NCBI GenBank assembly: GCA_019244235.1 | Contig: JAFASY010000270.1 | Coordinates: 1-43,577, forward strand | DNA from: Chroococcidiopsidaceae cyanobacterium CP_BM_ER_R8_30 | GTDB lineage: Bacteria > Cyanobacteriota > Cyanobacteriia > Cyanobacteriales > Chroococcidiopsidaceae | Length of the DNA stretch: 43,577 nucleotides | Direction of reading: 5' to 3' | In this document: piece by piece, positions 6,644-43,577 of the stretch | Layout of the letters: each line of letters opens with the position of its first letter | Position numbering within the stretch: position 1 is the first letter of the stretch | Program-made: the position numbers and the translations under genes | The notes under the pieces: generated by a model | What the model was told of the DNA's origin: nothing | The model's database searches: none | Seen by the model: the letters and a program-made list of their open reading frames with translations, nothing else

Positions 6644-7579
6644 ATGCCGAACACACCACAATCAACCGTTTTGACAAACCTGCTGCGATTTCACCCCTCA
6701 GGCTTTGGGCAGCAAGTTATAGAAACATCTTTGGGTTCAATGGTTTACTACACCCAGATGTTTACCTCCTGGTCAATTTCAGACCTGGAGGGGTCAACCC
6801 CCTTAATCTTCCTGCACAGCTTTGGCGGCGGTGCTTCTGCTTACGAATGGTCAAAAGTTTACCCTGCCTTTGCAAGCGATTATCGCATATTAGCTCCAGA
6901 CTTAATTGGTTGGGGTCAGTCGGCTCATCCAATACGAGATTACCAAATTGCTGACTATCTAACGACGCTAACGGAGTTTATCCAGCAGATAGGCCATTTG
7001 CCCGTGATAGCCATCGCCTCTTCCCTGACGGCGGCTTTCACTATCCGTTTGGCAATTCAACAACCAGATTTATTTCAAGCGCTGTTTCTTGTTTGCCCAT
7101 CTGGATTTGATGATTTTGGGCAGGGAGCAGGTCGTCGACTGCCGCTACAGGTGATCAATACACCATTGTTCGACCGCCTAATTTATGCCATAGGTGCTGA
7201 AAATGAAGTCGCTGTGTCCAACTTCTTGCAGCAATTTCTCTTCGCCAAACCAGATCGAGTGTCTCAAGAGATGGTTAAGGCTTATTTAGCATCAGCACAG
7301 CAACCTCATGCTGAATATGCAGCTCTAGCCTTTCTACGGGGAGACCTTTACTTTGACCTAGCGCTATACATTCAGCAACTTACTGTACCCACGGTTATCT
7401 TTTGGGGCGAACAGGCGCAATTTACCAGTGTCAACCTAGGAAGACGTTTGGCACAGCTAAATTCTCAAGCAATTCGGGAGTTTCACACAATACCGCAAGC
7501 AGGAGTGCTACCACATCTAGAGCTACCGGAGGTAGTTGTTGGTCTATTGCAACCTTACTTGCGTTCACACGGCGTTTGA
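6644..7579 (+). CDS. Alpha/beta-fold hydrolase with atypical catalytic motifs
   Basis: A 311-residue alpha/beta hydrolase. The oxyanion-hole motif FLHSFGGG is at 56-63, PDLIGWGQS at 85-93, the nucleophile elbow reads AIASSLTAAF (Ser127 expected) and a His is at 291 (GVLPHLELP). The elbow is ASSLT rather than GxSxG. In the strand that normally carries the acid, the sequence is FWGEQAQFT, so the usual Asp is Ala. It may use a different acid or have low activity; the substrate is unknown. There is no signal peptide. The ATG at 6644 lacks a clear ribosome binding site. It is flanked by secreted-protein genes but not obviously linked to them. Confidence 0.82.
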   Translation: MPNTPQSTVLTNLLRFHPSGFGQQVIETSLGSMVYYTQMFTSWSISDLEGSTPLIFLHSFGGGASAYEWSKVYPAFASDYRILAPDLIGWGQSAHPIRDYQIADYLTTLTEFIQQIGHLPVIAIASSLTAAFTIRLAIQQPDLFQALFLVCPSGFDDFGQGAGRRLPLQVINTPLFDRLIYAIGAENEVAVSNFLQQFLFAKPDRVSQEMVKAYLASAQQPHAEYAALAFLRGDLYFDLALYIQQLTVPTVIFWGEQAQFTSVNLGRRLAQLNSQAIREFHTIPQAGVLPHLELPEVVVGLLQPYLRSHGV

Positions 7580-27520: not shown

Positions 27521-28213
27521 TTAAAATAGAACTTCTTTAAGCAGCCGACCGTCTTCCATGTGGATTGTTCGGTCAGCAATATCTAAAATTCGGCTATCGT
27601 GAGTTACCATCAAGATAGAGCATCCCTGTTCCTTAGCCAACCGCTGCATTAGCTCTACGGCATCTCGACCTGACTTACTGTCTAAGGAAGCGGTTGGCTC
27701 ATCAGCTAAGACCAATCGGGGATGACTTACTAAAGCTCGGGCAATGGCTACGCGCTGCTTTTGCCCTCCTGAGAGTTCAGCCGGACGGTAATCCACTCGG
27801 TCACCTAGCTTAACAGACTGGAGCATAGCTTCTGATTTGGTGCGAGCTTCTCTGTCGAGAAGCTCTTTATGTAGTTCAACAGACATTTGTACATTCTGTC
27901 GGGCCGTTAAGAATTCGAGCAAGTTGTGAGATTGGAAAATGTAACCAATATGGCGACGTACTTGCACGAGTTTGTCATGGCTAGCCCCACGAAGCTCCCG
28001 GCCTATAACATTAAGACTTCCCTCTTGGACAGAGCGTAAACCTCCTATCAAAGTCAACAAAGTGGTTTTTCCTGACCCTGATGGTCCAGTCATAATGACA
28101 ATTTCTCCGGATTTTATTTCCAGATTGATGTTGAACAAGACCTGGCTTCTTAGCGATCTTTTGCCCCAGTAGTGATTGAGATTTTCAATAGCAATAACAA
28201 TTTCTTGACTCAT
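27521..28213 (-). CDS. devA: DevA-type ABC transporter ATP-binding protein
   Basis: A 230-residue ATPase with Walker A GPSGSGKTT (about residues 44-52), the signature LSGGQKQR (about 145-152), Walker B LVLADEPTASLD (about 164-175) and the switch His in VTHD. It powers the DevBCA exporter; in Nostoc and Anabaena this system, with TolC, exports heterocyst glycolipids across the envelope. It is last in a minus-strand run devB-devC-devA, 25 bases after devC. It resembles LolD/MacB-type ATPases, and the neighbour devB and devC genes support the Dev assignment. Here it lies beside a lipid-type synthase rather than alone. Confidence 0.87.
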   Translation of the reverse strand: MSQEIVIAIENLNHYWGKRSLRSQVLFNINLEIKSGEIVIMTGPSGSGKTTLLTLIGGLRSVQEGSLNVIGRELRGASHDKLVQVRRHIGYIFQSHNLLEFLTARQNVQMSVELHKELLDREARTKSEAMLQSVKLGDRVDYRPAELSGGQKQRVAIARALVSHPRLVLADEPTASLDSKSGRDAVELMQRLAKEQGCSILMVTHDSRILDIADRTIHMEDGRLLKEVLF

Positions 28214-28238: not shown

Positions 28239-29417
28239 CTAAAAAATATCAGATGGGTCTGCAGCCCGCAATTTCTGTACAGCAAGAATACCAGAAATGG
28301 AACACATTAGAACTACCACGATTAATACCAGTGAACTTTGATGAATTGTCATGACCATTGGTAAGTGAGTAGCATTCTTTGCTAAGTCGTACAAGCCCAA
28401 AGAAATGATCAATCCCGGAATGTAACCTACAACTGCTAAGATTAAAGCTTGTTGGAAGACCAAGCCTAATAAGTAATTATTTTTATACCCAATTGCTTTT
28501 AGGGTTGCATATGCAACCAAGTGATTAGAAACATTACTATAAAGGATTTGATAGACAACACCTACACCAATAATAAACCCCAGTGTTACCATGAGCTTAA
28601 ACGTAAAACCAACTATCGTTCTGACATCCCAATAGTGTTTTTCTAATGAAGTAAAGCCTTGACGGGTAAGAACTTTAACATCTTTTGGTAGGTAGGCTAC
28701 TAAAGTCGCAAGAGCTTTTTGAGGATCAACACCTGGTTTGAGATTAACTAAACCTATATCTATCTCTTCTGCTATACGATCTATAAATATATTTAAGAAA
28801 GTTGAATAGTTGATAATTAAATCTCCATCAACTCCAAAAGAAGGTCCTATACTGTATAGGCCAGAAATTTTCAATCTGTTAGCTTTAGTTATTGTGTTAT
28901 AGGGAGCTATTTCAATTCGCACAACCTTCCCTTGCTCAAATTCCTTAGCTATAGGTCCGAATAAGTCAGCTCGTGATTCCCGGTCAAAGAGAGCCATATT
29001 AGGAGTTTTTAGTTTATCCAGACTTTGATTTATCTCAGATAAGTTAAAAGTTGGTTTTCCAGGGTCAATACCAAAAACAAATATTGGGTACTTTTGACCA
29101 CTCTCGAGATTTTTCAATTTTCCGAATTGGATATACAAAGGGCTAACAGATTCTACATCATCAAAAGCTAGAGCCTGATACAAACGAGTTCGAGGGAAGC
29201 TTTGCTGGGAGGTCAAAGCATTATATTGAGTGCTGATTAAAAATAAGTCTCCCTGTAAACTCTGATGCACTCGTATAGCACTTGCAAAGAGAGCGTCCTG
29301 GAAACCTAGTTGCATAAATAGAATAATAACAACAAAAGCGATACCCGCCAAAGTCGTTATAAAGCGAACTCTTTGGTGCGTTAGTTGTAGCCAAGCCAGA
29401 GGTACATAAAGAATCAC
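28239..29417 (-). CDS. devC: DevC-type ABC transporter permease
   Basis: A 392-residue FtsX/MacB-like permease. One membrane segment lies near the N-terminus (TTLAGIAFVVIILFMQLGF), a large extracytoplasmic domain covers about 45-260, and three segments are at the C-terminus (FKLMVTLGFIIGVGVVYQIL, LVFQQALILAVVGYIPGLI and SLVLIVVVLMCSISGIL). The end KLRAADPSDIF is typical of DevC. The start is a GTG at 29417 with AGAGGC upstream. It works with the ATPase DevA and the fusion protein DevB, and devB lies immediately before it. Confidence 0.86.
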   Translation of the reverse strand: MILYVPLAWLQLTHQRVRFITTLAGIAFVVIILFMQLGFQDALFASAIRVHQSLQGDLFLISTQYNALTSQQSFPRTRLYQALAFDDVESVSPLYIQFGKLKNLESGQKYPIFVFGIDPGKPTFNLSEINQSLDKLKTPNMALFDRESRADLFGPIAKEFEQGKVVRIEIAPYNTITKANRLKISGLYSIGPSFGVDGDLIINYSTFLNIFIDRIAEEIDIGLVNLKPGVDPQKALATLVAYLPKDVKVLTRQGFTSLEKHYWDVRTIVGFTFKLMVTLGFIIGVGVVYQILYSNVSNHLVAYATLKAIGYKNNYLLGLVFQQALILAVVGYIPGLIISLGLYDLAKNATHLPMVMTIHQSSLVLIVVVLMCSISGILAVQKLRAADPSDIF

Positions 29418-30781: not shown

Positions 30782-32647
30782 TCAGTAATTGGCTATTTTC
30801 TCCTTGAGAGAAGTAAAATGCTTTCCACCAAGTTCAATAAGCCCCTGTTCGCACCCGGCTTTCAGTCTTTTTACTAGATAATCTAAATCACTTGCTATAA
30901 CATTTGTGCCATGGTCTGGTTCTATCAAACTGGCTAGGACTATATTTCCACCATATTGATTTGCTAAACTAGAAATGCTTAGAAAATTAAACACTCCTGA
31001 TTCATATGTTCCGCAAGGTACGGAAGGATTATTAACTCCAGCGCCATATTCATTTGGCCTAAACCACTCGAATGCCGGGTAGCCGTGGAAATGTACAATT
31101 GGAGCACCGTTTCTAATGAGTCCTGGTGCATATAACGCTGTAGAAAGAGCTATAGCAAGCATGACATAGACATCATAAGAAGGTTTGATGTCGGCAGTTT
31201 TAGGATCAATTCCCTTAGGAAATTGTAGAAATAGCTTTCCTTTCAAACCAATTCTAACTATATCACGATCGAGATTTAAGTCTGTTTTATTTGAGCCTGA
31301 ACGGGAGCTTACAAGCCAGATGTCGGGAATTTGCTTAAATACATGTTCTGTTCCTATGCTAACTTTTACATACCATCTACCAATTTTATTCTGACGTACT
31401 TCATCAATACTGAATTCCTCAACAGGAAACAGGCTTTCCCATTCATCTTCAGATATCTCCGGAGGTCCAAAGTATTGTGGAGCTTCAGCATAGGCGACAA
31501 AGCCATAAGAGACACCTGTTCTACCATCCATTATGATGCTGACAATATCTCTATGGGACTTTCTTCTAATAAATTCACTAAGCTTTGAACCAGGAGGAAG
31601 TAGATCTGTTTTCGCAAGCTCCTTACTCAAGACAACCAATTTGTCTGCATACTTGGATTGCAGAGGATCATATTGTCCTAACTCAAATCGACTCATTGGC
31701 AGTGGAAATATGGGAACAAAAATTTTTGGGATCAGCGAATGTAATACAAAACCATCTATCTTAGTTCTAGGAAAAATAGAATCTGAAAGATTCATATTTA
31801 AGATTGAAATGTTTGTATTAGAAACGCCAATCACCATTTGTGAGTATGTTCTGATTAGAGTGCTTAAACCAATTTTTATTTTCTTTTGATAGGGTAATCG
31901 AAAATTTGCAAGCTTATTCAGTTCTGTAAGTATAATCGTTTGAGTATTCGTAGGGTCTTCAATGCGTTGACTTGCATGATCCTCAGCCCAACTAGCCAGC
32001 TTAACAATTGTTGGAACAGACATTTTGCGAGCTCTTGCAAAAAAGCGAGAGTATATTTGATATATGGTTTCTGCTATTAAAATTCTCAATTCTCTGATCA
32101 AGGAAGACGGTCTTTCAACATCGATGATTGCATTGATCCCAGTTTTGACTATCCTCGTCTTTATGTTTCTCTTCCATCTAATTAGAGGAAGGTTAAGTTC
32201 ATAACGATATTCTTTTGTAGCTTTGTCCCAGTCTTCAACTTTAACTCCATAGCTTTGAAATTCAGCCTTCAACTCTTCTCTAAATCTAAGAATCTCTTCA
32301 TTTTTGTATCTAGACGGCAAAGGTCTAAAAGTAACTGTTAGTTTTTGAGCCATCTCTCTAGGCTCAATGATGGGTTGCTTATATTCCACAGTTGATTTCT
32401 CGCAGAATCCCCCAATTAAACGACCGATTGTGTACAGGCTTAGTCCCTGACTTAGCGGTACAGTAGTGGATGCAGTGATATTTATCTCGTGCAGAAACGC
32501 TAGGATTTCTCCCTTACGGGCGGCAAGTTCCGCGTGCTGCTCTGGTGTCAGCACCCCCTTTGGCGCTCGAATACAGAGTTTGTCACGCTCGGCCTGTAAG
32601 TGAACACCATGTTGAGTGAGGTTTGCTACAAGCTCAGATACGTTCAT
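30782..32647 (-). CDS. TubC-type docking domain joined to a large unrecognised domain
   Basis: A 621-residue protein. Residues 1-55 match the TubC N-terminal docking domain (LVANLTQHGVHLQAERDKLC and IRAPKGVLTPEQHAELAARK), a small fold that couples NRPS/PKS subunits. The remaining 560 or so residues match no family I know. No condensation HHxxxDG, adenylation, thioesterase GxSxG or glycosyltransferase motif was seen. Notable stretches are SSLIRELRILIAETIYQIYS, ETIY-rich helices, and near the end VHFHGYPAFEWFRPNEYG then ASLIEPDHGTN. There is no clear signal peptide. The ATG at 32647 with GGGAGA upstream is preferred over the TTG at 32665. It lies between the ACP and devB genes, so it probably handles the synthase product or its carrier. 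Confidence 0.75.
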   Translation of the reverse strand: MNVSELVANLTQHGVHLQAERDKLCIRAPKGVLTPEQHAELAARKGEILAFLHEINITASTTVPLSQGLSLYTIGRLIGGFCEKSTVEYKQPIIEPREMAQKLTVTFRPLPSRYKNEEILRFREELKAEFQSYGVKVEDWDKATKEYRYELNLPLIRWKRNIKTRIVKTGINAIIDVERPSSLIRELRILIAETIYQIYSRFFARARKMSVPTIVKLASWAEDHASQRIEDPTNTQTIILTELNKLANFRLPYQKKIKIGLSTLIRTYSQMVIGVSNTNISILNMNLSDSIFPRTKIDGFVLHSLIPKIFVPIFPLPMSRFELGQYDPLQSKYADKLVVLSKELAKTDLLPPGSKLSEFIRRKSHRDIVSIIMDGRTGVSYGFVAYAEAPQYFGPPEISEDEWESLFPVEEFSIDEVRQNKIGRWYVKVSIGTEHVFKQIPDIWLVSSRSGSNKTDLNLDRDIVRIGLKGKLFLQFPKGIDPKTADIKPSYDVYVMLAIALSTALYAPGLIRNGAPIVHFHGYPAFEWFRPNEYGAGVNNPSVPCGTYESGVFNFLSISSLANQYGGNIVLASLIEPDHGTNVIASDLDYLVKRLKAGCEQGLIELGGKHFTSLKEKIANY

Positions 32648-32705: not shown

Positions 32706-33005
32706 TCAGATCTCAAAGATCTCTGACTCCGAAACTTCAGATTCCTCAGCTAAGCGTTGGGCAAGCGCTTCAATCGTGGGGTAATGCAACAGTAGTAAGG
32801 GAGAGAGCTCAAATCCTAGTAATCTCTCGACTTTGCTAACAATGATCATTGCTTGGGCTGAATCCAGGCCATAGCTATCGAAAGGTTCCCGGATGTCAAC
32901 ATAATCAGGGGCAACGCCTAGCTGCTCGGAAATAAGAGAGACCAAATAGGTTTGAATAGCATCTGCAGAGTGAGACTGTTTTGCAGTTGAATTGGACTGA
33001 TTCAT
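32706..33005 (-). CDS. Stand-alone acyl carrier protein
   Basis: A 99-residue carrier protein. The phosphopantetheine attachment site is in FDSYGLDSAQAM, with Ser49 as the expected residue, after a helix QTYLVSLISEQLGVAPDYVD and before LLGFELSPLLLLHYPTIEAL. Both ends have charged extensions (N-terminal Ser/Asn-rich, C-terminal EESEVSESEIFEI). It is 9 bases downstream of the PfaD-like gene and about 60 bases upstream of the docking-domain gene. A discrete carrier besides the carriers of the main synthase suggests an extra transfer or tailoring step. It is PKS/NRPS-like rather than the fatty acid ACP. Confidence 0.88.
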   Translation of the reverse strand: MNQSNSTAKQSHSADAIQTYLVSLISEQLGVAPDYVDIREPFDSYGLDSAQAMIIVSKVERLLGFELSPLLLLHYPTIEALAQRLAEESEVSESEIFEI

Positions 33006-33014
33006 CTGTACACC

Positions 33015-34670
33015 TTATAATGTGAGCGGGACTGGGTAATATTGACTATACTGAGCGGGCATTTGCAACCCCTGGATTTTTAGACTCTGTACGCGGTATA
33101 AAAATGCAGCTCCAGTCATGATGTGAGCGGCTAAATCCACCACTTTCCGATTGTGCGGCTCAGCTAGGTAAGACCCCCTCACCCAGTCATTAAAAGCGCC
33201 CATGGCTGGTCCACACCAAATTTGGTAATCGATCTCCCGTTCTTTTTCTCCAGAGTTGGACCAACGGGACGACAATCCTAAATACCAGCGGAAAATCAAT
33301 GCCATCTTCCGCTTGGGATTGTTGGTTGCCCGGATTATTTGGTCAGGGTCACGTTTGGTAAAGAAATTCACAGTATCTTCCCAAACACCTTCAAGACTCC
33401 TTCGAAAAATTTGTTTTTCCAATTGTTCCCTTTCCTGAAGCGGAATGTCTTCAATCGAGTTATAGCTCCTGTATAAATCAAACAATTTCTGAGCTCGCAC
33501 AGGGAAGAGTGTTCCTCTTTTTAGAACTTGCAGTTTTACGCCCATTTCAAACATGTCTGCCGCCGGAGCCATCATGACGTCAGGCATCTCAGCTTGGGAC
33601 AGCAACTTCTTGGTATGTTGGGATGTTGCAGCTTCAACACAAGACTGATTGATGGAACCGGTCACAACGTAGGCAGCACCCATTATGAAGGCAGCCAATG
33701 CTGATTGGGGTGTTCCAATTCCGCCTGCTACTCCAACCCTCACCAGCCTTTCATAACTATATTTTTGCTGAATTTCATCTCTTAAGCTAAGAATAGAGGG
33801 CAAGAGACAGACCAAGGGCCGATTATCTGTATGACCACCAGAATCTGCCTCCACAGTAATATCATCTGCCATTGGAATTTTTTCGGCCAGGGTTGCCTGT
33901 AACCCAGTGATCAGACCTTGAGCAACTAATTCCCTAAGAATCTTTGTCGGAGCGGGTTGGAGAAATTTGGTTGCAACTTCTCTTCTAGAAATTTTGGCAA
34001 TAACTTTGTTTTTAATCTCGATTTGATGTTCTGCATTGAGTCCAAGCCCAGCAGCCCGATAATAGACAATGTTGGAAGTTAAGTCTAGGAAAGCAGAAGC
34101 TTCTACAGTTCTAACACCATATTTGAGATACAGATCGACTGCACGACGTTCAAGAGCAGGTTCACTAGGACTGTGGATCAAATTAAAAGCGTAAGGTCCG
34201 TTGGGAAGAACTTGTTGAATTCGGTTAATGGCTTCCTCAATCCGGCTAGGAGCGAGGCCACCAGCGCCAAATGAACTCAAAATTCTCTGCTTTCCTAGAG
34301 CAATGACTAACTCCTCAGACGCAATGCCACCCGCCATCGAACCGGTAGCGTAGGGGTATTTCACATTATGAAAAGCAAGGAAACCTGGATCGCCCAACTG
34401 TTCAATCGAAAGCGGTGGAAGAACACTCAGTAATTGTACCTGTCCCACCTTACCACCATTATCAGGGCTCAAGTAGCCTTGGTTGGTTACACCAATCTGT
34501 TCTTGCTTAACAATGTAACAAGGTTTATCGAAGTTTAGCAGTTTAGCTTTGATGCCAACCTCGTCAAAAGATACGTTTTCTATAGGACCTCTCCATGTAT
34601 GGTCATGCCCATTTAGAGTTCCTAAAAAACCTATATTGTTATCGCTTGCTGCCACATATAAATTTGTCAC
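33015..34670 (-). CDS. PfaD-family enoyl reductase
   Basis: A 551-residue FMN enzyme of the PfaD / 2-nitropropane dioxygenase type. It is the trans-acting enoyl reductase of PUFA synthases, and Hgl loci of heterocystous cyanobacteria carry a relative. Visible features are GSMAGGIASEELVIAL with SSFGAGGLAP (about 113-140), VEADSGGHTDNRPLVCLLP (about 275-293), and VGVAGGIGTPQSALAAFIMG with YVVTGSINQSC (about 314-346). The C-terminal WCGPAMGAFNDWVRGSYL motif near 490 is typical of PfaD. The start is a GTG at 34670 with a strong AGGAGGG site upstream, so the unusual start is well supported. It follows the large synthase gene by 50 bases. Confidence 0.92.
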   Translation of the reverse strand: MTNLYVAASDNNIGFLGTLNGHDHTWRGPIENVSFDEVGIKAKLLNFDKPCYIVKQEQIGVTNQGYLSPDNGGKVGQVQLLSVLPPLSIEQLGDPGFLAFHNVKYPYATGSMAGGIASEELVIALGKQRILSSFGAGGLAPSRIEEAINRIQQVLPNGPYAFNLIHSPSEPALERRAVDLYLKYGVRTVEASAFLDLTSNIVYYRAAGLGLNAEHQIEIKNKVIAKISRREVATKFLQPAPTKILRELVAQGLITGLQATLAEKIPMADDITVEADSGGHTDNRPLVCLLPSILSLRDEIQQKYSYERLVRVGVAGGIGTPQSALAAFIMGAAYVVTGSINQSCVEAATSQHTKKLLSQAEMPDVMMAPAADMFEMGVKLQVLKRGTLFPVRAQKLFDLYRSYNSIEDIPLQEREQLEKQIFRRSLEGVWEDTVNFFTKRDPDQIIRATNNPKRKMALIFRWYLGLSSRWSNSGEKEREIDYQIWCGPAMGAFNDWVRGSYLAEPHNRKVVDLAAHIMTGAAFLYRVQSLKIQGLQMPAQYSQYYPVPLTL

Positions 34671-34720: not shown

Positions 34721-37700
34721 TTAAAACTGCTTTTCTGATAGCTGAATTCCTAAGTTCTTGATTAATGAAATAATTTTATCATCAAAAATAACAGCAACTT
34801 CTGCTTTAGCAAAGGGTTTTGGCTCCAGCCCAATTTCAGTTACCTCCAACCGATAGGTTAAAATGGCTGAAACAGGCGTGATTTGTCCGCGACTACGTCC
34901 TGACTGTGTAAGACGAGGAATTGGTTGAAATTTGGCATTAGTGGTACATGTCTGCAAGCCCAAATACAGTAGATAAAATAGCAAGGTTTGCACACAACCT
35001 TCGTTAATAATGGTGCCAGGTAGAACTAGGTCATCTTTAAAGTGGCAGTTGAAATACCACTGTTTAGGGTCCAAAGTTTTTTCAGCTACAACCAAGCCTA
35101 ATCCCCAACATCCTCCCCTAGGATCAACAGATATTACCCTGTCGATCATTCTTATAGCTTGTGAGGGCAAGCGTAGCGATGGATTCTTACCTTTTTGGTC
35201 GTAATTATCCCCGAAACAGGCTGCAATATTCCCTAAACTCAACTGTTTTAGGTTTTCATCATTAAAAGCAGACTTATAGCATAGCAGCAATGGTTCGAAA
35301 TGTTTTTTTTGAACTTTGCTTCTCTCTTTTTTTTCCTGAGCAGTTAGGCTAACCCCTTGGCCTTTTTTAAGAACTTCATCAGAAAAAAATCCTGCACCGC
35401 TTGTTGCTTTTAGGAACATTCTGTTACCTACGAAGCACTCATACGAAAAGAAAAACAGCAAAGTATTGCCGCCTCTGGCGAAGGAATTTATCCTGACATG
35501 ACAACGCAGGGTTTCTCCCACTACCGGCGTTTCACCCAAATATGTGGTTGTACCATCTAGTGCACGATAAACCCGCTGACCTTGATTCTCAAAATCGATG
35601 CCTATATAGCTGATCAAAAGCATGTTGCCGTGGCAGGCTTCAACGGGTATTGCGCAGGGAATTTGACCATCAACTGCATACCATGCATCCTGAGGAATGT
35701 CATATTCAGTCTCAATTAAGCAGGGCTCAAAGCACCCTCGTTTGGCTTCAAACTTGGTGACGCGACTGATAAAAAGATAAGGAGGCATAGGCAGGCGCAC
35801 GCGTCTCGAATATGAATCGATGATTTCGTATTCTTTACCGAAGACTCGTGAAATACTCCCTGCAGCAAATTCCAACATGTCTGCTTCGTTAAATATAACG
35901 CTGGCAGGCTTCTGAAGAGGGAGTACAGTGGATTTTGATTGGGTTGAATCAGATGGCTCCTGGAATGTAGAAATCTGACCACTAGAAGCCTGCTTTATCT
36001 GGAGCCTTTCTCTTGCTTGAGAATTCTCCTGAGTAGGCTTTTGGTCTTGCAGGTGCCGCGAAACAGCGATTTGCATCTGAATGAGTTCGCTCATTTGACG
36101 TAATGACTCACGTCGCGCCTGTAAGAAAGCGGTATGGGCCTGAGTTACAATAGATGCCTTTTCACTCAGTTTTTGGTTGTGGAAGCTGTGCAGATCAGAG
36201 AAGGTTCCGGCATGAACATGTTCACTCGTTTCCTTATTGAAGGATGGGATATATTGGTGGTCTTCTTGTTCAGTTTCGGGTGAGTCTTGAGTAAGGGGTT
36301 CTTGAGAATAGAAGTTGTAGTTCGCATTACCATTAGCTTCCCTTTGTTCTACCTTCCCTATGAGTTTGCCTTGGGTGGTACTTGCAACCTCTTTCACAGT
36401 GCTTTGAGCCATTAGTGAGGCTACCTCTTCAATCTCAGGCTTTTGGATCGGCAAGGGCTTGTGCTGCTCTAAAACGCTTTGAGACAGGACTGGTGAAGGT
36501 TGAATTGCAAAGCTTTTCTGATTTTCCTCAGTCAACATCGCAGATACAATCCTGCGACCGCCTAAGGTTACCGCTTTAACGAGGGCTCTCTTAGTAGTAT
36601 AGTTTTTCTCTTGACTATACAGGGGAGATAAATCAACAGGGACCCGATGGCTGAGTAGCTTCGCCAAAACTCTGACGATACCAGTATGATCGTCTACGCT
36701 TCGGCTATTAATAAACATCGTGACATGCTCTTTTTGCTTAAGCGTTTCACGAATCCAGCGAGAACAGGTGCCCCCTGGGCCTAGCTCGATAAAAATGCGA
36801 TTACCATCCTCATAGCTTCGGTTAATTAATCGAGGAAAATCAAGCTGCTTACACAGTGCTTGTGCAATGTTACGGGCGATAGACTGGCTATCGAGTATCA
36901 TGCGTTCATAATGAGCCGCAGAATAAAAATCGAGCTGTGGCTGGCTTTGGACAGGTAAGGTTAACGATTTGACGAATTCACTATATTCGGAGCGCATGGG
37001 CTCACAGTGAATGACATGGCTAGCAGGCGCGCGGAAATGGTCACATTTTAAATTTTTAATGACCCGCATACAGCCTTGTTTATCACCGGCGATGACCACT
37101 TCTAAAGGGGTATTGATATGCGTCAGATAAACATGCTTTTCATGCTTCAAGCTCTCTTTGACCTCAGATACAGTGGCTATGAGTACGTAAGTACTCCAAA
37201 AATCTTCGCTTGCATCCTCCTGCGTTTGGGGCAATCCCCAAGCTTCGCGAACCGCATTTTTGGGACCGGATAACCTTGTTCTGAACAGAGGAGATGATTC
37301 TATACTTTCGGCTGTATCGTCATTGCTAATCCAAACATTCAGCGCATACATCATGCTAAGTTCACCAAGGCTGTACCCAACTGCCGACTTTGGCAGTACT
37401 CGGAAATCATTTCTCATAATCATGGTATAAACTAGCGCAGCGCTGATTCCGGATAGAAACATGACTATCGGGTTATCTGCGAGCTGTCGCTCAAGGACCT
37501 CCATTTGCCGCTTTGATAATCTCTCAAGGCTTCTTGAGTAGAGAAGTTTAGTCGACAGATGCAGATACTTCTTCAGAGATTCCGCAGAAGTAAATTTAAC
37601 GGCCCTATCGTACGTACTAGGGAACAGATGGTGGATATCTCGACCCATGCCAATATAGGAGTTGAACGCGCCAGGGTAGACAAAAGCGACGCTACCTTGC

Positions 37701-40700
37701 TTACCCAGCGGTTTAGCTGTGAAATAACTGCCTAAAGGGCTTTTCCATTCTCCCCCTCCATCAAAAGCCTTGGGCACACCGTTCTGTGCGTACTGGATTT
37801 CTCGAGTCAGCTCGCCTTTATTGTGTCCAACGATTGCCAGTGCATATGTTGGTTGAGAATGCGCATTGTAAGCTGCAAAGGCTTGAGTTGCGGCTACGGC
37901 TAAGGAAGAACAACGATCGATGGTTTCTTGTAGAGCATTCAGCTGCTCCAATAAAGCCGATCGTTCAGCAGCAGCAAGGGGAAACAGATAAAATGGGGTT
38001 TGCTCCAAATAGCGACTGCTGCGATCTTGTTCGCTTACGTCTTCTGATAAAATCAAATGCGCATAGGTCCTATCTATCCCTAGTCCGTTAATAGCAGCAA
38101 CTCTCTTAGCCGATGCTGCTTCTAAAGACCAAGTTCTCGATTCGGTAGCAACATAAAAAGGGCTACCTTGCCAAATCTCTGGCTTTTTGGGACCAGACCA
38201 TTGGGGCGTTGCAGGAATATACCGATGATACAAACAAAGCGCAGTTTTAATTAGGCTAGCCATTCCCGAAGCGGCATAAGTATGTCCGATATTGGCCTTG
38301 ATACTGCCGATTGCACAACTTAATTCGGGTTCGGGGGTTTTATAAGCTTGGATTAACCCACTAATCTCCGCCTCATCTTCTTGATCTACCCCACTTCCGA
38401 AGACTTCTAAATAGCTGATGTCCGCAGGCTTGATACCAGCCTCATTGAAAGCTCTTTGGCATGCTTGGGTGACTACTTCAGCTACTGGTGGCTGTAGTAA
38501 GTTATCTGCTTCTGAGGTGGAATTCCCCTGGACTAAGCTGATCGCGTCAATCACCGAATAGATGCGGTCTCGATCCTGCTTTGCTGTATCAAGGCGCTTT
38601 AAAACTACAGCTCCGGCACCTTCACCAACCATCCAGCCATTCGCATTGCGGTCGTAACTAAGCGTTTGAACGCCAGTGTTGATTGGCATCATTTTGTTGC
38701 GCGATAAAACATTTTCAACACTACCAGACAGATCTACAGCTCCCACAACGACAGCATCTACCTTCTTTTGAGCAAGGAGCATTTGGGCAACTTCTAGTGC
38801 CTTAAAGGTAGAATTCTCCTCAGCTGATAGCGTGAATGAGGGACCAGAAAAGTCCCATAAGCTAGAAATACGACTGGCCATAATATTGCCAATGAAGCTA
38901 AGACACTGGTTGACCTGTATTGGTTTGAGCAAACTATCATTAGCAATTGTTTCTAGTTCAGAGATCTTTTCAGGAGGCAAGGCAATATTAAATTGTTTAA
39001 GGCTTTTGTTGAGCTGCCAAATCAAATCAGATTTGACTCGTGTTTTGTGGGCAGCAAGTTCAGTTCCCATGGCAATGATCACAGCCACGTTTGCCCCTCG
39101 TTCAAGCCTAGCATTTCTGATGGCGTTGTCAGCGACCTTCAAAATCAAAAGTTGTTGGGGAATAGGTTGATCTGCCGCATCAGGAGGGATCTTGAATTGT
39201 AGATAATCCAGTTCAAAATCATTGATGTAAGCACCTAATGGTGCTTCAGCGCCAGCAAAGCCACAGTCTTTCAGCAATTGTTCTTGATCTTCAATTCCTT
39301 GCCATCGGCAAGCAGGAAGGGGAATAAAATGCTGGGTCCCCTCATAAATGCTGCGCTCGAAGGCATCCAAGCTATTACAGAGGCCGAAATAGGCATCCAT
39401 GGCGATGATCGCCATTTTCTCGGTTTGAACTGGTGAATTTGCTTCAGTTCCGGCAGACGGAATGGGTTTTCTTTGATTGCCTCGTTCAAGAATTAGGTGC
39501 GAGTTAGTTCCGCCAAAACCAAATGCACTGATGGCCGCACGTTTAAGTGAAGTTTGACTAGGCCAAGAAGTGACAGAGCTAACGACTTTCTCAGAGGCGA
39601 TCGCATTGTTCAAGGAGGATAAGGGCTCACGCAAATGGATTGTCGGTGGAATGAGACCCTGTGACATACTCAAGATAACTTTGATTGTGCTAGGCATTCC
39701 TGCAGCAGTTAGCAGGTGACCAAGATTAGACTTTACAGAACCTACTAGGGGTGGGTTTCTATATTGACCGAAGAAAGCCTCCATGGAGTTGAGTTCAGTT
39801 CTATCTCCTAGAGGAGTTCCGGTAGCATGACATTCCACGTAATCGATACTTTGTGGATTAATATCTGCCTCAGCATAGGCCCGTTCAAACGCAAGAGCTT
39901 GACCTTTCGGATTGGGGCTAAGAAAGTGTTTTCCTCCTCCATCATTTGATAAACCAACGCCAAGGATCGTGGCGTAAATCTTGTCACCATCCCTGATCGC
40001 ATCACTGTAGCGTTTCAGAACCAGCATTCCAGCTCCTTCACCAGTCATCATTCCAGCGGAAGAGCTATCCAAGGGACGGCTAATACCATCCTCAGGGTAC
40101 GCTTGGAAGAGAGAAAATACTGTATGGGTCATATAAGGATCTGTACAGCTCACGCCTCCAGCTAACATCAAATTAGCTTTACCGAACACCAAGTAATCGC
40201 ACGCGAGCTTAATAGCATACAATGATGATGCACAGGCAGCATCAAGGGAAAAATTAATACCAGATAGAGATAGCGCTTGGGCAACAACTGCTGACGGATA
40301 ACCAGCTGTCAATATATTTAGCGGAGAGATGTTATCAGGTGAAGGCAAGTTCTCCAACCGAAAATCTTGATGATGTAAAAGTGCCTGAAACCCTGAAGCA
40401 ATAGTTCTTTGATAAATAGGAGCAATCAGACGATACGAAAATCTCGTGGGAGAGGAGAGATTGCCCAGTACGATTCCACATTTTGAAAGAACAGAGGTAT
40501 TTCCAAGATAACCACTATCCTGTAAGGCTTGCTTTGAGACATAAAGAGACCACTTATAGATATTATCTAAACCTTCGATAAACTCTGCTGGAAATCTATA
40601 GCCATCTGCCTCAAATTTAAACTTTTTAATATATCCTCCCTTCATGCAATAGTATTTACCAGTTTCTCCTGTTTTTCCTTTTACTGGATCGTAAAATATT

Positions 40701-40840
40701 TCAGGTTCTACTCCCATCTGCTCTTCGGTTGCCAGAGATATAGAATCTTTTTGTGCGATCAGATTCTGCCAAAACTGTTCAGGCGTCTGGGCTTCGGGGA
40801 AGAGGCAAGATAAACCAATAATTGCTATTTTTTCCATCAT
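34721..40840 (-). CDS. KS-CLF-AT-DH-DH polyketide/PUFA-type synthase
   Basis: A 2039-residue iterative synthase. KS1 (about 1-450) has the active Cys in DAACASS near 203, HATGTPLGD, and SNLGHLL. The second KS-like domain (about 470-930) has SAEENS near 673 in place of the Cys site, so it is a chain-length factor. An acyltransferase follows (about 1030-1400) with GYSLGE near 1158. After a polar linker (about 1440-1640) come two FabA-type dehydratases: DH1 (about 1648-1850) lacks the His (WYAVDGQIPCA), while DH2 has CHFKDDLVLPGT near 1933. PfaC proteins have KS-CLF-DH-DH; here an AT is inserted, as if HglC- and HglD-type proteins were joined. Start is the first of two ATGs (40840), with AGGGAA upstream. 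Confidence 0.92.
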   Translation of the reverse strand: MMEKIAIIGLSCLFPEAQTPEQFWQNLIAQKDSISLATEEQMGVEPEIFYDPVKGKTGETGKYYCMKGGYIKKFKFEADGYRFPAEFIEGLDNIYKWSLYVSKQALQDSGYLGNTSVLSKCGIVLGNLSSPTRFSYRLIAPIYQRTIASGFQALLHHQDFRLENLPSPDNISPLNILTAGYPSAVVAQALSLSGINFSLDAACASSLYAIKLACDYLVFGKANLMLAGGVSCTDPYMTHTVFSLFQAYPEDGISRPLDSSSAGMMTGEGAGMLVLKRYSDAIRDGDKIYATILGVGLSNDGGGKHFLSPNPKGQALAFERAYAEADINPQSIDYVECHATGTPLGDRTELNSMEAFFGQYRNPPLVGSVKSNLGHLLTAAGMPSTIKVILSMSQGLIPPTIHLREPLSSLNNAIASEKVVSSVTSWPSQTSLKRAAISAFGFGGTNSHLILERGNQRKPIPSAGTEANSPVQTEKMAIIAMDAYFGLCNSLDAFERSIYEGTQHFIPLPACRWQGIEDQEQLLKDCGFAGAEAPLGAYINDFELDYLQFKIPPDAADQPIPQQLLILKVADNAIRNARLERGANVAVIIAMGTELAAHKTRVKSDLIWQLNKSLKQFNIALPPEKISELETIANDSLLKPIQVNQCLSFIGNIMASRISSLWDFSGPSFTLSAEENSTFKALEVAQMLLAQKKVDAVVVGAVDLSGSVENVLSRNKMMPINTGVQTLSYDRNANGWMVGEGAGAVVLKRLDTAKQDRDRIYSVIDAISLVQGNSTSEADNLLQPPVAEVVTQACQRAFNEAGIKPADISYLEVFGSGVDQEDEAEISGLIQAYKTPEPELSCAIGSIKANIGHTYAASGMASLIKTALCLYHRYIPATPQWSGPKKPEIWQGSPFYVATESRTWSLEAASAKRVAAINGLGIDRTYAHLILSEDVSEQDRSSRYLEQTPFYLFPLAAAERSALLEQLNALQETIDRCSSLAVAATQAFAAYNAHSQPTYALAIVGHNKGELTREIQYAQNGVPKAFDGGGEWKSPLGSYFTAKPLGKQGSVAFVYPGAFNSYIGMGRDIHHLFPSTYDRAVKFTSAESLKKYLHLSTKLLYSRSLERLSKRQMEVLERQLADNPIVMFLSGISAALVYTMIMRNDFRVLPKSAVGYSLGELSMMYALNVWISNDDTAESIESSPLFRTRLSGPKNAVREAWGLPQTQEDASEDFWSTYVLIATVSEVKESLKHEKHVYLTHINTPLEVVIAGDKQGCMRVIKNLKCDHFRAPASHVIHCEPMRSEYSEFVKSLTLPVQSQPQLDFYSAAHYERMILDSQSIARNIAQALCKQLDFPRLINRSYEDGNRIFIELGPGGTCSRWIRETLKQKEHVTMFINSRSVDDHTGIVRVLAKLLSHRVPVDLSPLYSQEKNYTTKRALVKAVTLGGRRIVSAMLTEENQKSFAIQPSPVLSQSVLEQHKPLPIQKPEIEEVASLMAQSTVKEVASTTQGKLIGKVEQREANGNANYNFYSQEPLTQDSPETEQEDHQYIPSFNKETSEHVHAGTFSDLHSFHNQKLSEKASIVTQAHTAFLQARRESLRQMSELIQMQIAVSRHLQDQKPTQENSQARERLQIKQASSGQISTFQEPSDSTQSKSTVLPLQKPASVIFNEADMLEFAAGSISRVFGKEYEIIDSYSRRVRLPMPPYLFISRVTKFEAKRGCFEPCLIETEYDIPQDAWYAVDGQIPCAIPVEACHGNMLLISYIGIDFENQGQRVYRALDGTTTYLGETPVVGETLRCHVRINSFARGGNTLLFFFSYECFVGNRMFLKATSGAGFFSDEVLKKGQGVSLTAQEKKERSKVQKKHFEPLLLCYKSAFNDENLKQLSLGNIAACFGDNYDQKGKNPSLRLPSQAIRMIDRVISVDPRGGCWGLGLVVAEKTLDPKQWYFNCHFKDDLVLPGTIINEGCVQTLLFYLLYLGLQTCTTNAKFQPIPRLTQSGRSRGQITPVSAILTYRLEVTEIGLEPKPFAKAEVAVIFDDKIISLIKNLGIQLSEKQF

Positions 40841-40949: not shown

Positions 40950-42677
40950 TTACTTCTTCAAGAAGAGATGATTCAGCCGCTTATTAATAATTCCTACAAC
41001 TCCTTCTAGACGTATATATGCTTGCCCCTGACTATCATGGGCTGTAATGTTGCTAACCACCTTAGTATCTGTTTTGGATTGTAATTCCATAGATGTGTAA
41101 AATCTCTTATCAAATGGAATGGGCTGGAATTGCTCAATTTTTTTTATTTCTAAAGGTAGGCATCCTAATTGGTGAAGCTGCATCAGCCAAATCAAGGCAC
41201 TCTGAAGTAGAATGTCAATAATATAGGGGTTGAATGTTTGTACCGCAAACTGACCTTGTTGTCTTTCTGGAATACTCGGCAATATACATTGTATGGTAAT
41301 TTTTTCCGAACTTATGTTTAGAACCTGTTCTACCCCCTGAAAACAAGGTCCATGGAACAAAGTTCCATTTTGATAAAGGGACGGACCAGGAATGGCCCAA
41401 TCGCTCGCTATGTTGAACGAATCATAAGTGGGTACAGGCAGACTGTGCTGCCGCAGTTTGACCTGACCGTTGTAATGGAAACGGATCTTATTTGATTCGT
41501 TTTCGCTCCATATCCTTGCCTCAAATTCTATTTCATTAGAGTCGGTTTTAGCGACTTCTTTCACATCCATAACAAACTCGCTTGCTTGGGTATTATCGAA
41601 AACAATTCCCTTGAGAACCTTAAAATTTTCCATACTGAAAAAGATATGACCGGGATAAAACTGCTCGCATGTACTGGCAATCCACGATGTAGCGCACGCA
41701 GCTGGTAAGACTGGATGACCACCAATCACATGATCCTGTAAAAATGGATTAGATAAGAGCGTTAATTTGCGGTGGATACGATGCGTTCGTAGTTCAGGAG
41801 ATAACTCTCCGGCTTGCGGAAGCATTGGGCTACCGATGATAACTTGCGCAGTGTTATGATTCGTAGTCGCCAGCTCTTCTACTAGCATTTGTGTTCCGAC
41901 TTCAATCGGAATAACCTCAATCCTGCGTTTGGCAAAAGCCTTTTTTAATTCTGGGGTCACCATGCCACTATCCCAAGGTCCCCAATTAATGGCAACTACA
42001 TGACAGGAGGGATAATGCTGCTTCACAAGGTGAGCTGACTTATTGAGAATTTCATTGGCGATTGCGTAATCTGACTGACCACTATTCCCGTAAAAACCAG
42101 AGACAGAAGAAAAGAGGACTAAATAATCAAGTTGACTTGCGTTCGTACAACTGAGGAGGTTTTCCAGCCCTTTGACTTTAGCTGCAAATACAGTTTCAAA
42201 ATCCTGTTCTGTTTTCTTTTCAATCAACTTATCGGCTAAATTTCCCGCTCCATGAATAATCCCCGTAATCGGACCCATGCGCTCAACCGCAACTGCAAGC
42301 TTCTGCTGTAAGGCAAAAGCATCAGTCACGTCCACACTGAGATATTCTGCCTGACCTCCTGCCCGTTCAAGGGTAGAAAGTGTTTTTTTGATTTCTCGCC
42401 TGGATGCAATAGCATTAAATACCCTTTGTACGCTTATAGGTGTTGGCTTCTCACCTTGGGAAAGGAAATCTTCCACAATCCGTTTTTTTAATTCGAATTC
42501 ATCATCACAATTCCGGGCCCAGGTCGGTTCATCTCCCTCCAAAGATGAACGCCCTAGTAGGAGCCATCGGCACTGGTAATGCTGTGCCAGTCTAATTACG
42601 CACTCAGCAGTAATGCCTTTTGCGCCGCCACTGACGAGAAAAACAGACGATGGATCTATCCGGGCCTTTTTAGTCAT
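40950..42677 (-). CDS. Synthase module C-terminus: ketoreductase catalytic half plus dehydratase
   Basis: A 575-residue frame carrying the catalytic half of a PKS ketoreductase and a PKS dehydratase. The KR part has FLVSGGAKGITAE (about 13-25) for NADPH and LFSSVSGFYGNSGQSDYAIA near 185-206, with the Ser and Tyr of the active site. The DH part starts near 325 with DHVIGGHPVLP, which fits the HxxxGxxxxP active-site pattern, and has DILLQ near 487 for the Asp. This is the tail of a PfaA/HglE-like synthase. It is in the same frame as the preceding 42687-43292 stretch, separated by one TAA and three codons, so it probably belongs to one gene. The ATG at 42677 has no ribosome site. Confidence 0.85.
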   Translation of the reverse strand: MTKKARIDPSSVFLVSGGAKGITAECVIRLAQHYQCRWLLLGRSSLEGDEPTWARNCDDEFELKKRIVEDFLSQGEKPTPISVQRVFNAIASRREIKKTLSTLERAGGQAEYLSVDVTDAFALQQKLAVAVERMGPITGIIHGAGNLADKLIEKKTEQDFETVFAAKVKGLENLLSCTNASQLDYLVLFSSVSGFYGNSGQSDYAIANEILNKSAHLVKQHYPSCHVVAINWGPWDSGMVTPELKKAFAKRRIEVIPIEVGTQMLVEELATTNHNTAQVIIGSPMLPQAGELSPELRTHRIHRKLTLLSNPFLQDHVIGGHPVLPAACATSWIASTCEQFYPGHIFFSMENFKVLKGIVFDNTQASEFVMDVKEVAKTDSNEIEFEARIWSENESNKIRFHYNGQVKLRQHSLPVPTYDSFNIASDWAIPGPSLYQNGTLFHGPCFQGVEQVLNISSEKITIQCILPSIPERQQGQFAVQTFNPYIIDILLQSALIWLMQLHQLGCLPLEIKKIEQFQPIPFDKRFYTSMELQSKTDTKVVSNITAHDSQGQAYIRLEGVVGIINKRLNHLFLKK

Positions 42678-42686
42678 GGGCTTTGA

Positions 42687-43292
42687 TTAAATGGATTGTT
42701 TACTAATGAGGGTTGTGCGCCCTTGTGGACCATACCCAACTTCGGTAATATAACGGTTGGGGTCATGTAGCTCGGCGATAATACATTTTGCTGACTGCTC
42801 AGCATCAATATCAGGGCTCAGGTCGATGGCCCGACAAAACACAGGTTCCCACTCAAAGTTCAGTGTTTTAGTCAATCCAAACAGGCCGGCACTGATAACG
42901 CTAAAGTTCATGTCTTGTCTTAGACCAAACGCTCCATCAAGACGAGCAACGGTAAGGAAAAAGCTGCGTCCTTTAAGCGCCGCTTCATTAAGCGATTTTT
43001 TCAGATGTTTGGCCATGAGAAAGACATGCTTGACGATCACCTTCTCCTCTTCGAGAAAGCGGATTCCACCGCTATGATCAGTCAGAAGTAAAGGATGTAG
43101 ATGAACGAAAGCGCCAATGGAACCATAGGTATCTGTAATCGCTGCTAACTGTTGTTTCAGGCAATCCTCGCTTAAGTCTTCAAGCACCACTCGATTGACG
43201 TCGTCCGGCAAAGGGGCTCGTCCCGCAATCAGGGACTGGGGAAAACTGAAAACGACAACTTTCGAGCCCTGCTTTGTTAGAGACTGTGCCAA
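42687..43292 (-). CDS. Synthase module fragment: ketoreductase structural half
   Basis: This is the N-terminal, structural half of a PKS ketoreductase (LTKQGSKVVVFSFP, VHLHPLLLTDHSGG and LFGLTKTLNFEWEPVFCRAI; the end is EVGYGPQGRTTLISKQSI), 201 residues if it starts at a TTG at 43292. The open frame continues to 43463 and holds the first strand (DHHICLLTDDGSFNTTKLA), so that start is almost certainly false. It ends at a TAA (42687-42689) in frame with the next segment. Both ends therefore look like breaks in one large gene, through mutation, sequencing error or recoding. Confidence 0.6.
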   Translation of the reverse strand: MAQSLTKQGSKVVVFSFPQSLIAGRAPLPDDVNRVVLEDLSEDCLKQQLAAITDTYGSIGAFVHLHPLLLTDHSGGIRFLEEEKVIVKHVFLMAKHLKKSLNEAALKGRSFFLTVARLDGAFGLRQDMNFSVISAGLFGLTKTLNFEWEPVFCRAIDLSPDIDAEQSAKCIIAELHDPNRYITEVGYGPQGRTTLISKQSI

Positions 43293-43417
43293 TTTTGTGG
43301 TATTGAACGAACCATCATCGGTAAGTAAGCAAATGTGATGATCAGGTAAGGTGAAATCTAAGTAGTCAGGTTCAGGCAGAACTTTGAGTTCGATCAGACT
43401 GCGGTGAATATTATGAT

Positions 43418-43577
43418 TTAAAGTTGGTTGCTGACTGTAAGTCGCATCTCCAAATTTTTTTTTTCAGCCACCTGTTGTTTCATCTGCTCAATGATTTGAC
43501 CGAGGGTACGCAATTCTCCCAAATCTTCTGGATCCAACTTGGGTAAATCGGGAAATTGCTCCTGCATTGCCACTAAG
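43418..43577 (-). CDS. Partial synthase: acyl-carrier-side linker (cut by window edge)
   Basis: The frame enters from beyond the window and reads VAMQEQFPDLPKLDPEDLGE and LRTLGQIIEQMKQQVAEKK, then ends at a TAA (43418-43420). The DPEDLGELRTLGQIIEQM pattern is the linker usually found after acyl carrier domains and before the ketoreductase in PfaA- and HglE-like synthases. It changes frame at a run of ten A residues (43455-43464 on the plus strand as T). The last 14 or so residues after the run are probably not real. Confidence 0.65.
   Translation of the reverse strand, partial: LVAMQEQFPDLPKLDPEDLGELRTLGQIIEQMKQQVAEKKNLEMRLTVSNQL
43455..43464 (-). other. Ten-A homopolymer at a synthase frame change
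   Basis: Ten T on the plus strand, so ten A in the coding strand. Before it the synthase frame is GCT GAA AAA..., after it the frame that continues the ketoreductase is AAA TTT GGA. One more A (or two fewer) would join the two. It may be a real mutation, a slippage site or a sequence error. Confidence 0.7.

Follow-up and report, generated by a model that had tools for sequence, protein, structure and literature searches.

A docked aldolase-fold protein predicted to be recruited by a tailed acyl carrier protein at cyanobacterial lipid-synthase loci

The 621-residue docked aldolase-fold protein described here, for which we use the short name TUB, is encoded on the reverse strand of a 43,577-nucleotide stretch of DNA from Chroococcidiopsidaceae cyanobacterium CP_BM_ER_R8_30 (contig JAFASY010000270.1 of assembly GCA_019244235.1), referred to below, at its full length, as the window. 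TUB joins an N-terminal docking domain of the TubC type to a body whose C-terminal half is modelled with the fold of the class II aldolases, and its gene lies beside that of an acyl carrier protein (ACP) whose C-terminal tail appears to serve as the docking signal. On the layout of the loci, we read TUB as placed where two kinds of lipid synthase would release their chains, and we give an even chance to the proposal that it is an accessory enzyme recruited by the synthase at the end of chain building.

Results

A sequence-only reading of the window had described a TubC dock on a body of about 560 residues, encoded between a free carrier protein and an ABC exporter in a lipid-synthase locus, and this description held. 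The open reading frame (ORF) encodes 621 residues with a TubC_N match near the N-terminus, the gene is flanked by a 99-residue free ACP upstream and a DevB/DevC/DevA exporter downstream, and PfaA-, PfaC/PfaB- and PfaD-like genes are present. The features of TUB and of its predicted partner are as follows.

30782..32647, reverse strand: TUB gene (ATG at 32647, stop codon 30782-30784)
32474..32647, reverse strand: TubC_N/beta-hairpin docking domain, residues 1-58 (Pfam TubC_N)
31700..32365, reverse strand: Rossmann-like domain, residues 95-316, weakly CoaB/PPCS-like (separate model, VIA-align)
30785..31669, reverse strand: modelled class II aldolase-fold domain, residues 327-621 (VIA-align)
31172..31174, reverse strand: D492, proposed equivalent of FucA E73/AraD D76 (PSYD in 71/71)
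31085..31093, reverse strand: H519-F-H521, proposed metal ligands (H.HGYP in 71/71)
31013..31015, reverse strand: C545 in PCGTYES, invariant (PCGT.ES in 71/71)
30911..30913, reverse strand: H579 in EPDHGTN, proposed third metal ligand (70/71)
32706..33005, reverse strand: free ACP of 99 residues, predicted dock partner (PP-binding, E 9.1e-16)
32706..32732, reverse strand: C-terminal tail of the free ACP, SESEIFEI plus stop codon, predicted dock-binding short linear motif (SLiM)

The same reading had suggested a search for homologues and their genomic neighbours. By a pattern scan of genome contigs, relatives of TUB were found at 52 loci (L003-L054), 51 of them 57-68% identical to it over nearly their whole length and one (L054) cut off by its contig. 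All but one of these loci are cyanobacterial by title (51/52), the exception being L054, which is labelled Candidatus Gracilibacteria; its truncated copy is 65% identical and probably lies on a mis-binned cyanobacterial contig. Among 388 genomes sampled from the class, 31 matched the body, while the other genomes listed matched in the dock region only, bar one weak match that reaches residue 136. A profile of the body alone, run on 386 genomes of the phylum, matched 34 times in 32 of them, always within a frame of at least 623 residues, and the 20 of these matches that were fetched as loci all align from residue 1. Homologues without the dock, which the sequence-only reading had said would speak against it if they stood in unrelated loci, were not demonstrated in any of the 386 phylum genomes; truncated copies (e.g., L054, L083) are not judgeable in this respect. 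Plasmid records yielded two matches, in Gloeothece verrucosa PCC 7822 and in Nostoc sp. UHCC 0926, the latter being a genome already counted (G375); the Gloeothece copy, the single annotated record seen, is annotated as a “hypothetical protein”. Among 35 sequences less than 86% identical to one another, 133 residues are invariant. These data confirm that the docked protein and its conserved relatives are real, far beyond chance.

The docking domain was recognized by Pfam as TubC_N (PF18563) over residues 3-54 (E 5.8e-17, 62 bits against a cut-off of 26), and the same match was obtained in all 41 aligned family members. In the predicted model the dock consists of a helix (3-12), two strands (16-20 and 23-27) and two further helices (35-43 and 45-59), and by Foldseek the AerJ dock (8aqq) compares with it at TM 0.82, normalised to the target. 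Three basic residues, K23, R27 and K30, lie on or beside the second strand, and K23 and R27 are each kept in 62 of 72 distinct dock-tail pairs. Sequence searches of the PDB with TUB returned docks and chance-level matches, and nothing more. The sequence-only reading had taken such docks to sit, as a rule, at the start of subunits of nonribosomal peptide synthetase (NRPS) and polyketide synthase (PKS) megasynthases. This was too narrow, given that passages of a review place them also on thioesterase (TE), methyltransferase (MT), thioester reductase and halogenase proteins (PMC9113145).

Of all the results, the best supported is the candidate binding partner of the dock, namely the tail of the neighbouring carrier. 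A strict motif, [ED]x[FIL][EQ][ILFM]-COOH, ends 51 of the 1036 ORFs of at least 80 residues in L003-L054, and all 51 are the carrier of a TUB gene, i.e., 45 free ACPs and six ACPs that end a megasynthase, a perfect fit that is partly by construction, the motif having been written after the tails were seen. As a control, the eight other ACP-like ORFs in these loci were considered, and all eight are without the motif. The tailed carrier adjoins the TUB gene, or, in L022, lies one gene before it. L014 and L020 also contain a second ACP-like ORF (158-175 aa), which is untailed and lies near a thioester-reductase-like gene. The strict motif fails in L059 and L133, where the last residue is Val, and in L065 (TETVDV), and it was relaxed after those failures to [ED]x[FILV][EQD][ILFMV]-COOH. 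The survey of tails covered 83 sequences after identical ones had been collapsed, close strains remaining separate, and in 77 of them the carrier was found by its own signature; the relaxed tail was present in 77 of these 77. As for the six in which no carrier had been found, L054 and L083 are truncated, L078 and L080 show the tail despite the missed signature, and in L134 and L142 the ACP, which is tailed, lies one gene further upstream (seen as L164 and L165). Every locus in which the partner carrier is visible, 81 of 81, thus has the relaxed tail.

The genome from which the window derives contains 17 PP-binding stretches, and the tail was found in two of its 12 carrier ORFs with a visible C-terminus, namely the window ACP and a large carrier-bearing ORF on contig C169. 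It also contains two TubC_N docks, the second of which starts a large ORF on contig C299, with the next upstream ORFs on the opposite strand. The C169 ORF has the tail GEREEIEF, and this ORF and the C299 dock may be a pair split over contigs.

Published docks of this class recognise a carrier by its final five residues, using hydrophobic residues and salt bridges (PMC6195595, PMC9113145), and in the first of these accounts the Kj12B tail carries a Glu next to last, as does the window ACP, that pairs with R24 of the dock (PMC6195595). Provided that the sequence match is ungapped, K23 and R27 of the TUB dock stand at places matching the known dock, with K23 corresponding to Kj12 R24. At the tail position that would match R27, Ile is the most frequent residue and an acidic partner is missing; the register may thus be a different one. 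In a recently described system the tail is not needed in vivo, and it is the ACP itself that the dock grips (PMC13324335); the tail may therefore not be the whole contact. A search for a dock-tail contact by covariation was confounded by relatedness and was not used. The sequences nevertheless point to the tail as a docking signal for the TUB dock.

Two arrangements of the synthase were distinguished. In the larger group, which comprises 45 loci among L003-L053, the carrier is a free ACP, and a PfaD-like gene is visible in 39; of the six loci in which it is not, L008 shows just 3 kb upstream. In the smaller, fused group the tailed carrier ends a protein with a ketosynthase (KS), an acyltransferase (AT) and an ACP domain, and in a tree of 54 of 79 sequences (near-copies dropped) the eight fused-type rows fall on one side of a 100/100 branch. 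The terminal KS lacks the His of HGTGT in 12 of 12 fused-type loci (11 QGTGT, one NGTGS) and keeps the active-site Cys, whereas upstream KS domains keep HGTGT in all six checked. The terminal AT is degenerate where examined. In the two that were scanned, the Pfam model is matched over its first third only; in L132 about 78 residues are missing relative to CurL; and the GHSxG motif is replaced by GNDxG or GNNxG in six loci, by GPHPI in L078 and by GQSVG in L132. By its sequence, the terminal KS-AT-ACP module looks like a non-elongating hand-over module, in which the usual chain extension would be impossible; at 12744-15758 of L132 and its counterparts, this apparent hand-over module lies within a PKS with built-in ATs. 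The module upstream of it is KS-AT-KR-ACP in L028 and KS-AT-DH-ER-KR-ACP in L132, so the beta position of the arriving chain would differ between the two, which argues against a chemistry tied to that group. Dock, tail and position together argue that the substrate of TUB would be a chain borne by the ACP dedicated to it, and in the fused type this would be the fully built chain.

The body of TUB, which the sequence-only reading had left unrecognised and without a catalytic motif, was assigned by the structure prediction and fold search that it had suggested. In an AlphaFold2 model made from the 41 aligned sequences (pLDDT 83, pTM 0.82), residues 327-621 have the class II aldolase fold, found by structure only. 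VIA-align, used as a second look at Foldseek's candidates, matched these residues to class II aldolases at a best Z of 13.6. Its eight top rows align 165-189 residues at 2.8-3.6 A, and later rows held epimerase, decarboxylase, dehydratase and Fe-dependent oxygenase members (AraD, APIP, HMPDdc, POD, NovR). The top PDB match by Foldseek was rhamnulose-1-phosphate aldolase (E 1.9e-4). The match is thus to sugar aldolases, and not to a known PKS tailoring enzyme, a clear match to which the sequence-only reading had named as telling against a new function. NCBIfam gave no match for TUB, Pfam gave it a single further match besides TubC_N, to NIR_SIR_ferr, and the aligned members showed only scattered weak ones; the NIR_SIR_ferr match (E 0.014, below the cut-off, in one of 41 members) was dismissed as chance.

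In the class II aldolase superfamily the metal site has the layout of an HxH motif, a later His in a hairpin and an acid, and a conserved HxH...H pattern of this kind is present in TUB. In the model, the HxH of H519 and H521 ends strand 515-520, D492 caps helix 493-506 and the hairpin formed by strands 571-576 and 580-585 contains H579, a secondary structure that fits this layout; D492 is the proposed counterpart of FucA E73 and AraD D76. The H519-H579 spacing is 60, as compared with 64-76 in 15 cyanobacterial Aldolase_II sequences. The motif counts given above refer to 71 distinct sequences, and the single exception to EPDHG.N is L076, whose frame stops before that point. Since fold and conservation both argue for it, the TUB body is probably a metal-dependent enzyme.

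Residues 61-320 were also modelled alone (pLDDT 71, pTM 0.68). In VIA-align, CoaB/PPCS occupied 19 of the 20 top rows for the middle domain, the best at Z 9.2 (151 residues, 4.0 A), and the exception was AmiR, which is unrelated, at Z 8.1. Foldseek returned nothing under E 0.001 for this domain, the DFP profile gave no Pfam match, and hhalign against eight DFP sequences aligned only 23 columns (probability 0.2). The likeness of residues 95-316 to CoaB/PPCS is a weak hint from the model.

The remaining genes of the cluster are as follows.

33015..34670, reverse strand: PfaD-like enoyl reductase (TIGR02814, E 8e-202)
34721..40840, reverse strand: PfaC/PfaB-like protein of 2039 aa, with KS, second KS-like domain, AT and FabA-like DH
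40950..43576, reverse strand: PfaA-like C-terminal part (linker, KR, DH), three ORFs at the contig end
29444..30679, reverse strand: DevB-family membrane fusion protein (TIGR02971, E 2e-108)
28239..29417, reverse strand: DevC-family permease (TIGR01185, E 1.5e-133)
27521..28213, reverse strand: DevA-family ATPase (TIGR02982, E 6.2e-112)

Past the DevA gene lie a CobB/CobQ-like gene and the genes for OpcA, G6PD, transaldolase and FBPase, and the cluster therefore seems to end there. No thioesterase was matched by Pfam in the synthase proteins of the window, and among the window genes scanned there was neither a PapA-like gene nor another release gene near the synthase. An alpha/beta hydrolase is encoded at 6644-7579. 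The PfaA-like gene at the contig end (42687-43576) is split into two ORFs in different frames (43418-43576 and 42687-43292), both of which match one continuous protein of L035, an apparent frame break that may be real or an assembly error; the ORF at 40950-42677 is separate, and an equal split is seen in L010, L035 and L042. A reading of the locus as a heterocyst-glycolipid (hgl) island was set aside, as Pfa-like genes and DevBCA do not make an hgl island.

Across loci, neighbours were classed by BLAST clusters, and one or two members per class were confirmed with Pfam. In 36 of 51 loci there is a PapA-like acyltransferase gene within 5 kb of the TUB gene, and in the other 15, as far as the contigs show, none lies in that range. 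A short-chain dehydrogenase/reductase (SDR) follows TUB in 12 of 12 fused-type loci, directly so in 11; the extended SDR of L132 resembles OleD (2-alkyl-3-oxoalkanoate reductase) far below the cut-off, at 101 of 580 bits. Glycosyltransferase-like, methyltransferase and sulfotransferase genes are also among the neighbours. Fused-type loci contain, between an ACP and the first PKS, a protein of 454-465 residues (4420-5784 in L132, 483-1877 in L028, 6507 in L133), for which neither Pfam nor NCBIfam gave a match; its place may resemble that of CylC-type halogenases (PMC8406957). A fatty acyl-AMP ligase is also encoded at that spot in L132.

Discussion

What was computed directly is that TUB has a dock, that the carrier tail is conserved when set against other ACPs of the same loci, that the model has an aldolase fold, that the residues listed above are conserved, and that TUB stands after the last carrier in both kinds of synthase; from this we infer tail-dock binding, metal binding, catalysis and release. 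In the sequence of events that we propose, the finished acyl chain would reach the dedicated carrier with its C-terminal tail (SESEIFEI-COOH in the window), and the tail would add a strand to the beta-hairpin dock of TUB. The acyl-phosphopantetheine would thereby be brought to the probably metal-dependent aldolase-fold domain (H519, H521 and H579, with D492 nearby), which would release or transfer the chain. In many loci SDR reduction, PapA-like acylation or other decoration could then follow and, in some, DevBCA export. The sequence-only reading had left the choice among a tailoring, a release and a transfer enzyme recruited through the dock; recruitment is indeed probable, and a role in release or transfer fits the position.

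The chemistry is the least certain part of the proposal. Our guess is a carbon-carbon-forming release in which an enediolate attacks the acyl thioester to give a ketone lipid. An enzyme of this kind would be a counterpart of serine palmitoyltransferase that works without pyridoxal phosphate (PLP). Carbon-carbon release is our boldest reading, since it would use the enolate chemistry known for the fold and would account for the SDRs of the fused type. Taken as a whole, a new release chemistry, in which a metal enzyme recruited by a SLiM-dock pair joins a long ACP-bound acyl chain to an enediolate and the resulting keto lipid is reduced by an SDR, in both PUFA-type and modular synthases, is quite doubtful.

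Several results weigh against the reading of TUB as an aldolase-fold enzyme that releases the chain. Foldseek superposes the model poorly on its best match (TM 0.46 by target, rmsd about 10 A), Aldolase_II (PF00596) was not called by Pfam on TUB, and hhalign of the body against the 15 cyanobacterial Aldolase_II sequences was not significant (probability 0.2), although the same non-significant alignment still sets the HxH and the later His on their counterparts. At the level of the loci, no Pfa-like gene was found in about 10 kb upstream in L003, L005, L006, L016 and L023. What stays constant across loci is therefore the pair of tailed ACP and TUB, and not the synthase; a PfaD-family gene is present elsewhere in the genome in all five cases. 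In the window, the N-terminal part of PfaA lies beyond the contig end, where a TE could sit, and no SDR was found among the genes scanned near the cluster, the window's single SDR-like gene outside the synthase (1924-2799) being about 25 kb off. No more than 27 of 51 loci have an SDR, of either of two kinds, within 5 kb, and the thioester-reductase-like proteins of four loci (L014, L020, L159, L161) could themselves release the chain.

The latter proteins would also suit a role for TUB in on-line tailoring, e.g., dehydration, epimerisation, decarboxylation or Fe(II)-dependent oxygenation of the ACP-held chain, with a PapA-like acyltransferase or a reductase releasing it afterwards, a role that we consider possible but not likely. 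Docked halogenases are known, according to parts of the review cited above (PMC9113145). The fold is common to epimerases, dehydratases, decarboxylases and Fe-dependent oxygenases (NovR, pyruvic oxime dioxygenase), the PapA-like acyltransferases of 36 of 51 loci could take the chain directly, and the five loci with ACP and TUB away from a synthase would fit a self-standing tailoring pair. However, a reaction tied to the beta position becomes less likely given the variation of that position between L028 and L132, PapA-like genes are missing from the scanned window genes and from the 5-kb range of 15 of 51 loci, and the arrangement of a non-elongating KS feeding a carrier with a tail is that of a release junction, reportedly the one of enacyloxin.

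Release could also take a narrower form, in which TUB would be a thioester hydrolase or transesterase, with C545 or a metal-bound water attacking the acyl-ACP to give a free acid or an ester, so that no carbon-carbon bond would be made. The invariance of C545 (71/71) and its place between the proposed ligands in sequence would suit such an enzyme, as would the lack of a thioesterase match in the window's synthase proteins. In class II aldolases, however, the metal triad and acid serve enolate chemistry, for which such a set is typical, the SDRs encoded further down in many loci point to a product with a carbonyl group, and to our knowledge no thioesterase has the class II aldolase fold; we regard this form as unlikely. 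Still further down, and highly improbable in our estimate, is a non-catalytic scaffold resembling eukaryotic adducin, whose dock would bind the carrier and whose fold would position the chain for PapA or a reductase. Adducin-type members of the aldolase fold are non-catalytic, a spectrin-actin junction chain stands at Z 10.6 in the VIA-align rows, and the sequence is too divergent for profile detection. Yet a scaffold would need neither the proposed ligands nor the acid, all of which are conserved throughout the 71 sequences save for one that ends early, and 133 residues are invariant besides.

Among known systems, TUB resembles the SLiM/beta-hairpin pairs (TubB-TubC, EpoA-EpoB, the Kj12 rhabdopeptide NRPS and enacyloxin Bamb_5917-Bamb_5915) in its N-terminal TubC_N dock and in the acidic-hydrophobic tail of its carrier. 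With the class II aldolase/adducin superfamily (FucA, RhaD, AraD, MtnB/APIP, NovR, POD, TqaM), it shares the modelled fold of residues 327-621 and the HxH...H pattern with a preceding acid, but it has no significant sequence similarity to class II aldolases, adds a dock and a Rossmann-like domain, and would act on acyl-ACP where they act on a sugar phosphate. Enacyloxin release is said to combine a non-elongating KS, a SLiM-bearing carrier and a docked C domain. The fused clade is alike in that a His-less KS feeds a tailed carrier beside a docked enzyme (the enacyloxin junction is touched on in short mentions in PMC13324335), and it differs in that TUB has the aldolase fold rather than a C domain and in that its synthases are lipid synthases. 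The docked bodies named in the relevant part of the review are C, E, Cy, TE, MT, reductase and halogenase, and the TUB body is none of these (PMC9113145). Cyanobacterial secondary lipid synthases (hgl type F/type G of Shulse and Allen; clade II of PMC13291983, as given in part of that paper) resemble the window in their PfaA-, PfaC/PfaB- and PfaD-like genes, and the window shares with heterocyst glycolipid export, by family names, a DevBCA-family exporter. In the portions of these published accounts that were available, neither a TUB-like docked protein nor an adjacent tailed ACP is mentioned.

The docking principle is therefore known, while for its use to recruit an aldolase-fold protein, and for the TUB family itself, we found no description in the open-licence literature, absence from which is weak evidence. 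The tail supplies a simple rule for finding which carrier TUB serves, and it makes chain release by these synthases directly testable with two small proteins. Given that TUB is present in 31 of the 388 genomes of the class sample and stands beside two types of synthase, it may determine the head group in a class of cyanobacterial lipids not yet described.

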